Positions 17,473 through 17,968 of a DNA stretch of 64,000 nucleotides are shown in pieces. The stretch is from Microcyclospora pomicola. Lineage: Eukaryota; Ascomycota; Dothideomycetes; Capnodiales. The notes beneath the pieces were generated by a model. That model did not search any database, was not told where the DNA came from, and saw nothing but the letters and a program-made list of their open reading frames with translations. The DNA lies in assembly GCA_002786065.1 (NCBI GenBank), contig NHNY01000002.1, positions 868,001-932,000 of the forward strand. The letters run 5' to 3'. The first letter of the stretch is position 1. Every line of letters starts with the position of its first letter. The position numbers and the translations under genes were made by a program.

Positions 17473-17480
17473 AAAAAAAA
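17473..17480 (-). terminator. RNA polymerase III terminator of the tRNA-Arg gene
   Basis: A run of eight T on the minus strand begins 10 nt after the discriminator base, preceded by TTTC. This is a strong Pol III stop signal and supports Pol III transcription of the interrupted gene. Confidence 0.85.
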
Positions 17481-17501
17481 GAAAGTCATACGACACCGAT
17501 G

Positions 17502-17512
17502 GGACTCGAACT
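17502..17512 (-). promoter_or_regulatory. tRNA internal promoter B box, rebuilt across the intron end
   Basis: AGTTCGAGTCC matches the B-box consensus GGTTCGANTCC at all but the first base. Its first two bases are the AG that ends the intron; the rest is the T loop. In the spliced RNA the same place reads GGTTCGAGTCC. A poorer B-box look-alike, AGTTCGATTGT, lies at the intron start (17561-17551). Confidence 0.7.
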
Positions 17513-17564
17513 ATTGCACAGTTAGCATATGATCAAAGGGAGAAATGATCACAATCGAACTTAC
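17511..17564 (-). other. Putative spliceosomal intron inside the tRNA-Arg gene
   Basis: The insert starts GTAAGT (consensus 5' splice site), has CTAAC at 17525-17521 (consensus branch site, A at 17522) and ends AATAG (3' splice site), with 11 nt from branch A to the end. Its 54-nt length is that of the protein-gene introns around it. A palindromic TGATCA pair (17551-17546 and 17535-17530) can form a 6-bp stem with a 10-nt loop. It lacks the bulge-helix-bulge position used by tRNA endonuclease introns. Confidence 0.82.
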
Positions 17565-17598
17565 CCCACAATCTTTGCCACCGGAAAGCAACGCCTTA

Positions 17599-17609
17599 CC
17601 ATTAGGCCA
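17599..17609 (-). promoter_or_regulatory. tRNA internal promoter A box
   Basis: TGGCCTAATGG at tRNA nucleotides 8-18 fits the A-box consensus TRGYNNARNNG and overlaps the D arm. Confidence 0.8.
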
Positions 17610-17968
17610 CGGTGCCTCGAATTTCCGAGACAGAGCGTTCTCGCCTGAGGACGAGAGTGGATGGTACGGATATTCCCGAACAAGATTTTGGATAATATAT
17701 GATGATTCCACAATGATGTGCCGAAGATAAGCCGGGTGGCGAAGAGAAGAAGAATGAGAGGACATCCTGCTGATACGATGGTTGGATCTGGCGTTGGAGT
17801 ATTGGTTCTGTGAGATACGAGGTCTACTGCGTAAGGAGACTCTGAACCTTGACGCGTTCCAGCGCGGAGCTACAGGCTCTTAGTGATATGTGCGGTGTCG
17901 AAGTACAGTGATGATCTGCCTCCTTTTTGCCATATAGCTACATCAATTGCGCTCAGCTCGCTTTCAAC

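Follow-up and report, generated by a model that had tools for sequence, protein, structure and literature searches.

Introns of nuclear tRNA genes are held to be removed by the tRNA endonuclease and to lie adjacent to the anticodon. Introns of the mRNA type occur in the U6 gene of Rhodosporidium, as well as in the nuclear 18S rDNA of fungi. The latter is again a non-coding RNA gene hosting spliceosomal-type introns, but it gives rise to a Pol I transcript and to an rRNA. A precedent for the gene described here is provided by the U6 RNA of fission yeast, a Pol III transcript which loses an mRNA-type intron and whose intron is proposed to stem from reverse splicing (PMC10484740). The likeness to the present case resides in a Pol III transcript split by an mRNA-type intron. 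The two cases differ because U6, for which reverse splicing is the proposed source of introns, is itself part of the spliceosome, whereas the host found here is a tRNA; moreover, the U6 gene found in the present genome is intronless, unlike that of fission yeast.

Introns located away from position 37/38 of the tRNA are dealt with in sections of a review (PMC4090602). As told there, non-canonical introns of archaeal tRNAs occupy the same 53/54 position as the insert described here, nucleomorph tRNA introns lie, like it, in the T arm and away from 37/38, and those of Cyanidioschyzon merolae are similarly found away from 37/38. Nucleomorphs and C. merolae are also named, in these sections, as exceptions to the view that inserts in the T arm or D arm of eukaryotic tRNA genes mark pseudogenes. 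The archaeal and C. merolae introns are tied in the same source to BHB motifs, whereas the present insert has no strict BHB in the registers giving the correct product. The inserts of the Guillardia nucleomorph measure 3-24 nt and are spliced in a way that the review calls unknown, whereas the present one is 54 nt long and features GT-AG and branch signals. The main text of the review contains no word starting with "spliceosom-", and none of the papers listed from open-access PMC text (titles and abstract openings) deals with a tRNA gene carrying a spliceosomal intron, in keeping with the initial annotation of this DNA, which knew of no such tRNA. T-arm introns in tRNAs and, in the Pol III RNA U6, spliceosomal introns are separately known; a nuclear tRNA combining the two is, as far as searched, new.

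An interrupted tRNA-Arg(CCG) gene

The window, that is the whole 64-kb stretch of DNA analysed, contains one sequence matching an Rfam family above its cut-off. This is a match to RF00005 at 17491-17616 on the minus strand (40.2 bits, with a window-wide E of 5.1e-05 and a gathering cut-off of 29), which covers positions 1-71 of the 71 of the model. In the alignment, an insert is placed in the T loop, between nucleotides 53 and 54, while the anticodon loop is uninterrupted, and position 37/38, where eukaryotic tRNAs canonically host introns, is empty. ARAGORN, set to permit introns in the anticodon loop only, detects no tRNA either in the whole window or in the unspliced 126-nt stretch. When the 54 nt are deleted, the same program identifies a tRNA-Arg(ccg) of 72 nt in which all stem pairs are standard or G-U. 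The two exons listed in Table 1, joined on the minus strand, make up a complete tRNA-Arg(CCG). The flawless two-segment tRNA of 72 nt with anticodon CCG and unoccupied 37/38 position claimed at the outset is confirmed, in its coordinates as in its exon halves, by the full-model Rfam match and by the ARAGORN call on the spliced sequence. Broken stems or lost promoter elements, which would denote a pseudogene, are not observed, as stems are intact once the 54 nt are removed, and A box, B-box core and T run are all kept. The D-arm and T-arm sequences are presumably the same in vertebrate tRNA-Arg(CCG), in which case both exons would be old conserved tRNA.

Table 1. Position of the elements of the tRNA-Arg(CCG) gene within the window
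Element	Position	Strand	Basis
tRNA-Arg(CCG) 5' exon, 52 nt (standard tRNA positions 1-53)	17565..17616	-	Rfam, ARAGORN, sequence reading
A box TGGCCTAATGG, Pol III internal promoter	17599..17609	-	sequence reading, spacing survey; known motif
Anticodon CCG	17582..17584	-	ARAGORN, sequence reading
Spliceosomal-type intron at 53/54 (best-fitting reading), 54 nt	17511..17564	-	Rfam alignment, splice-site scoring, sequence reading
5' splice site GTAAGT	17559..17564	-	splice-site scoring, sequence reading
Branch site CTAAC (A at 17522; distance to the last intron base 11 nt)	17521..17525	-	splice-site scoring, sequence reading
3' splice site TAG	17511..17513	-	splice-site scoring, sequence reading
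B box AGTTCGAGTCC, formed by the terminal AG of the intron and the 3' exon	17502..17512	-	sequence reading, core match, A-to-B spacing; known motif
tRNA-Arg(CCG) 3' exon, nucleotides 54-73, 20 nt	17491..17510	-	Rfam, ARAGORN, sequence reading
T8 run, predicted Pol III terminator, 10 nt past the tRNA 3' end	17473..17480	-	sequence reading, spacing survey

The tRNA gene adjoins a gene encoding a trimethyllysine dioxygenase, located on the opposite strand. Among the best 120 of 733 matches of this protein, the top two (P0001, 80%, and P0002, 77%) are labelled Quercus suber, and the label probably reflects contamination of the oak genome by a fungus related to the present one. A metagenome protein found among the same 120 matches is 84% identical over 60% of the query, and the best-scoring named fungal matches in this set (P0004-P0013) show 53-58% identity over 79-91%. 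The latter include proteins from Elasticomyces elasticus, Meristemomyces frigidus and Zymoseptoria tritici, Dothideomycetes belonging to the order Mycosphaerellales. On the basis of this single protein, the host would be placed with Dothideomycete-like fungi.

Splicing signals and chance

The insert was judged against the consensus sequences of 5' splice sites, branch sites and 3' splice sites, and scored on a splice-site scale devised for the analysis. The elements of a U2-type intron, a 5' site, a branch site and a YAG 3' site, are all present at fungal spacing, and the insert scores 12 out of 12. The GTAAGT start, the CTAAC close to the end and the terminal TAG initially noticed are all in place. 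The junction may be shifted by one base leaving the product unchanged, and just one of the two registers has GT-AG ends.

Forty first-order Markov surrogates of the window were used as null model. Intervals of 54 nt scoring 12 are found at a mean of 0.025 per surrogate window. The chance of finding one at a fixed place in either of two registers is about 4e-7, a figure good to a rough order of magnitude because the 40 surrogates taken together contain a single interval of this type. Score-12 intervals of any length between 40 and 110 nt are not rare, as nine are found in the 64-kb window versus a mean of 2.5 in the surrogates. The weight of the argument lies in the exact place demanded by the tRNA fold, not in the occurrence of a score-12 interval as such.

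Reference introns were collected by a mechanical scan between long open frames, which gave 20 candidates in the window. Ten of these score 11-12, and have motifs as in the tRNA insert; the likeness is partly built in, because reference introns were ranked by the same motifs. The ten are 51-103 nt long, which agrees, for a set picked by that scale, with the earlier remark that the 54-nt insert is as long as nearby protein-gene introns.

The intron sequence TTCGATT (17559-17553, minus strand), found close to the 5' end, resembles a T loop or B box, and, in the fold predicted for the RNA before splicing, its UUCGA is base-paired to the genuine T loop.

Promoter and terminator

The A-box and B-box motifs of a Pol III internal promoter can both be recognized in the tRNA-Arg(CCG) gene, which is followed by a T run; the T8 previously indicated as Pol III stop is indeed there. 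The insertion point falls within the B box, the core of which, GTTCGAGTC, is preserved in the DNA through the final AG of the intron. Added to TTCGAGTCC, this AG results in AGTTCGAGTCC, and the core GTTCGANNC therefore remains in the DNA. A box and B box are spaced by 98 nt, which is within the range of 44-110 nt measured in other nuclear tRNAs, both boxes being found by pattern in 26 out of 30; in tRNA-Arg(CCT) the spacing is 110 nt. A run of at least four T is found within 60 nt in all 30. To judge from these motifs, Pol III could still transcribe the tRNA-Arg(CCG) gene with the insert in place, and the unspliced RNA would lack a normal T loop.

Copy number and tRNA inventory

Searches of the 23.4-Mb assembly with either the spliced tRNA or the 126-nt gene detected, at incomplete sensitivity, no second copy of tRNA-Arg(CCG). 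The DNA search with the spliced tRNA also failed to return tRNA-Arg(CCT), in spite of 19 shared exact bases, and a diverged CCG gene could therefore be missed too. A 21-mer running from the D arm into the anticodon arm, searched at a tolerance of three mismatches, matched assembly-wide its own locus and one other place (C34:920226, three mismatches). The latter was rejected as second CCG gene: no tRNA is found there by ARAGORN or Rfam, and a control pattern similarly had one match.

The genome was also searched with RF00005, and 63 of 492 candidates were scored. Matches above the cut-off are 49, of which 18 are on C48, a 27.5-kb contig that in our reading is mitochondrial, given its size and tRNA density, and 31 elsewhere, tRNA-Arg(CCG) included. 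The covariance search for other tRNA-Arg(CCG) genes suggested by the initial annotation is answered for the scored candidates, as none is found among the matches. The gene ranks 48th of the 49 by score. Genes with a broken T arm score lower, and may therefore be hidden in the part of the candidate list not scored. A tRNA-Arg(CCG) gene that is intact and free of introns, singled out beforehand as evidence against the role of the interrupted one, was found by none of these genome searches, which were not exhaustive.

The 30 other nuclear tRNA matches were read by ARAGORN. Twenty-five have an intron in the anticodon loop, five are intronless, and an insert outside the anticodon loop is absent in all 30. 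The canonical introns at 37/38 share with the one described here the location in a nuclear tRNA gene, and differ from it in where they lie, in their signals and in the enzyme presumed to remove them. Of the 25, the longest (66 nt) is at 37/38 in tRNA-Arg(CCT) (L035, G000:C16:24570-25307); it includes another stretch resembling a T arm, GGGGGGCTTCGATCCCC, as though the 3' part of a tRNA lay within the intron.

Two isotypes assigned by ARAGORN are doubtful, since L016, labelled Thr(tgt), reads as Arg(TCT), and L022, labelled Ser(aga), reads as Pro(AGG). Arginine tRNAs in the inventory are CCG, CCT and probably TCT; tRNA-Arg(ACG) and tRNA-Arg(TCG) were not found among the 63 of 492 candidates scored. 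A tRNA-Arg(TCG) might read CGG by wobble. In the 22 uncurated ORFs of at least 250 aa found in the window, CGG accounts for 96 of the 657 Arg codons.

Origin of the intron and other Pol III genes

Reverse splicing is a possibility for the origin of the tRNA intron. The intron and six flanking bases find only themselves in the genome; with no detectable copy elsewhere, no recent donor is seen at the sensitivity of that search. An origin by tandem duplication was judged too weakly supported by the 12 identities out of 18 found between the first 18 nt of the intron and the T arm. When intron positions 7-36 are shuffled, 12/18 is reached at the start in 5 of 2000 trials and the same score is reached anywhere in 44 of 300, and segments of 18 nt from the flanks attain 11. 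The sequence AGTTCGA is found twice, at intron bases 4-10 and spanning the 3' junction. Direct repeats close to the borders of all the 213 introns examined are reported in one study (PMC11782384).

Other Pol III genes were monitored for inserts. None was found in the matches to U6 (one above the cut-off and three below; 47 of 1251 candidates scored), to 5S (15 matches, each of 120 nt; 47 of 1218 candidates scored) and to SRP RNA (one match of 271 nt, against the 293 of the model; 26 of 164 candidates scored). There is thus no second Pol III example, and tRNA-Arg(CCG) stands alone among the genes examined. Exon-intron patterns had no match in viral and prokaryotic contig collections, a result which says little about fungal relatives.

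Removal of the insert

The sequence is best explained by a spliceosomal-type intron located between nucleotides 53 and 54, a reading favoured because a clean tRNA emerges only after a GT-AG interval is deleted. The interpretation initially given to the insert is supported by the full set of splicing signals, by the tRNA obtained upon removal and by the lack of a strict BHB in the correct registers. It counts against it that Pol III transcripts do not carry the cap that aids the spliceosome. According to the model that we prefer, a tRNA gene would have gained a spliceosomal intron in the T arm. With A box and B box as promoter, the latter receiving its first two bases from the terminal AG of the intron, Pol III would transcribe all 126 nt of the gene and stop at T8. 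The unspliced transcript would be unable to form a normal T loop, and the spliceosome would therefore have to remove the 54 nt first, ahead of RNase P, tRNase Z and charging. On these grounds it is quite likely that this is a functional, apparently single nuclear tRNA-Arg(CCG) gene which gained a T-arm spliceosomal intron and is matured by the spliceosome. Function of the gene is probable, and making tRNA-Arg(CCG) would probably need the mRNA splicing machinery, not the usual tRNA-splicing enzymes.

In sections of the above review (PMC4090602), T-arm inserts in eukaryotic tRNA genes are said mostly to affect a single one out of many synonymous genes, and to be taken as pseudogenes. The insert might correspondingly denote a recent non-functional copy, a tRNA gene in which an intron landed and whose RNA is no longer matured, CGG being read by another tRNA; the inventory covers 63 scored candidates out of 492, and a tRNA-Arg(TCG) may still be encoded though not found. 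This we regard as unlikely, as no sister copy was found in the genome searches, which were not exhaustive, every stem is intact after removal of the insert, splicing signals are full, and B-box core and terminator are retained. The "very young disrupted copy" proposed earlier as an alternative is weakened by the same intact exons and complete signals, and by no parent copy having been found. Open frames on the minus strand cross the gene, and the tRNA could be spliced inside a longer Pol II transcript, the usual spliceosome substrate, and then excised by RNase P and tRNase Z. Such a route is very improbable: two of the three overlapping minus-strand frames of at least 70 aa were scanned and gave no Pfam match, nor did the adjacent plus-strand frame, the neighbouring trimethyllysine dioxygenase is on the opposite strand, and A box, B box and T8 indicate Pol III.

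Non-canonical tRNA introns may also be cut by the tRNA splicing endonuclease and sealed by tRNA ligase, as in Cyanidioschyzon and perhaps in nucleomorphs, and the same sections of PMC4090602 mention archaeal introns at 53/54 and nucleomorph T-arm introns that are excised. At minimum energy, the unspliced RNA is predicted to have the intron UUCGA paired with UCGAG of the T-loop exon, unpaired bases being found near both junctions. A near-BHB is formed if both cuts are moved two bases further 3', with 4/4 outer, 3/4 central and 2/3 inner pairs, but T54 would be replaced by G, in a column that is T in 19 of 19 aligned tRNAs. In both the registers yielding the right product the central helix has only 2/4 pairs; the arrangement typical of BHB (at the junctions, two 3-nt bulges around a 4-bp helix) is missing, and a relaxed bulge and helix are found in the predicted fold. 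The latter only moderately beats shuffled sequences (z -1.69, 13 of 200 as good), and D and anticodon arms of the cloverleaf are absent from it. Splice-site signals, in addition, would have to be a coincidence. A relaxed endonuclease substrate is less likely than a spliceosomal one, because spliceosomal signals are all present and the central helix is poorly paired in the correct registers, and we deem removal by the endonuclease highly improbable.

Implications

In the parts of the tRNAscan-SE 2.0 paper considered here (PMC8450103), the search for non-canonical introns is described for the archaeal mode, and eukaryotic tRNA genes are called limited to one intron. Genes with introns such as the one described here could therefore escape detection elsewhere, a possible blind spot. 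In the present fungus, it seems reasonably likely that the only nuclear tRNA-Arg(CCG) gene depends on the spliceosome: the intron at 53/54 would break the T loop in the RNA, its terminal AG would keep the B box in the DNA, and decoding of CGG would be tied to mRNA splicing. If this is true, the mRNA machinery is able to perform a step in the maturation of a tRNA, Pol III genes beyond U6 are open to invasion by spliceosomal introns, and an internal promoter can host an intron and survive.
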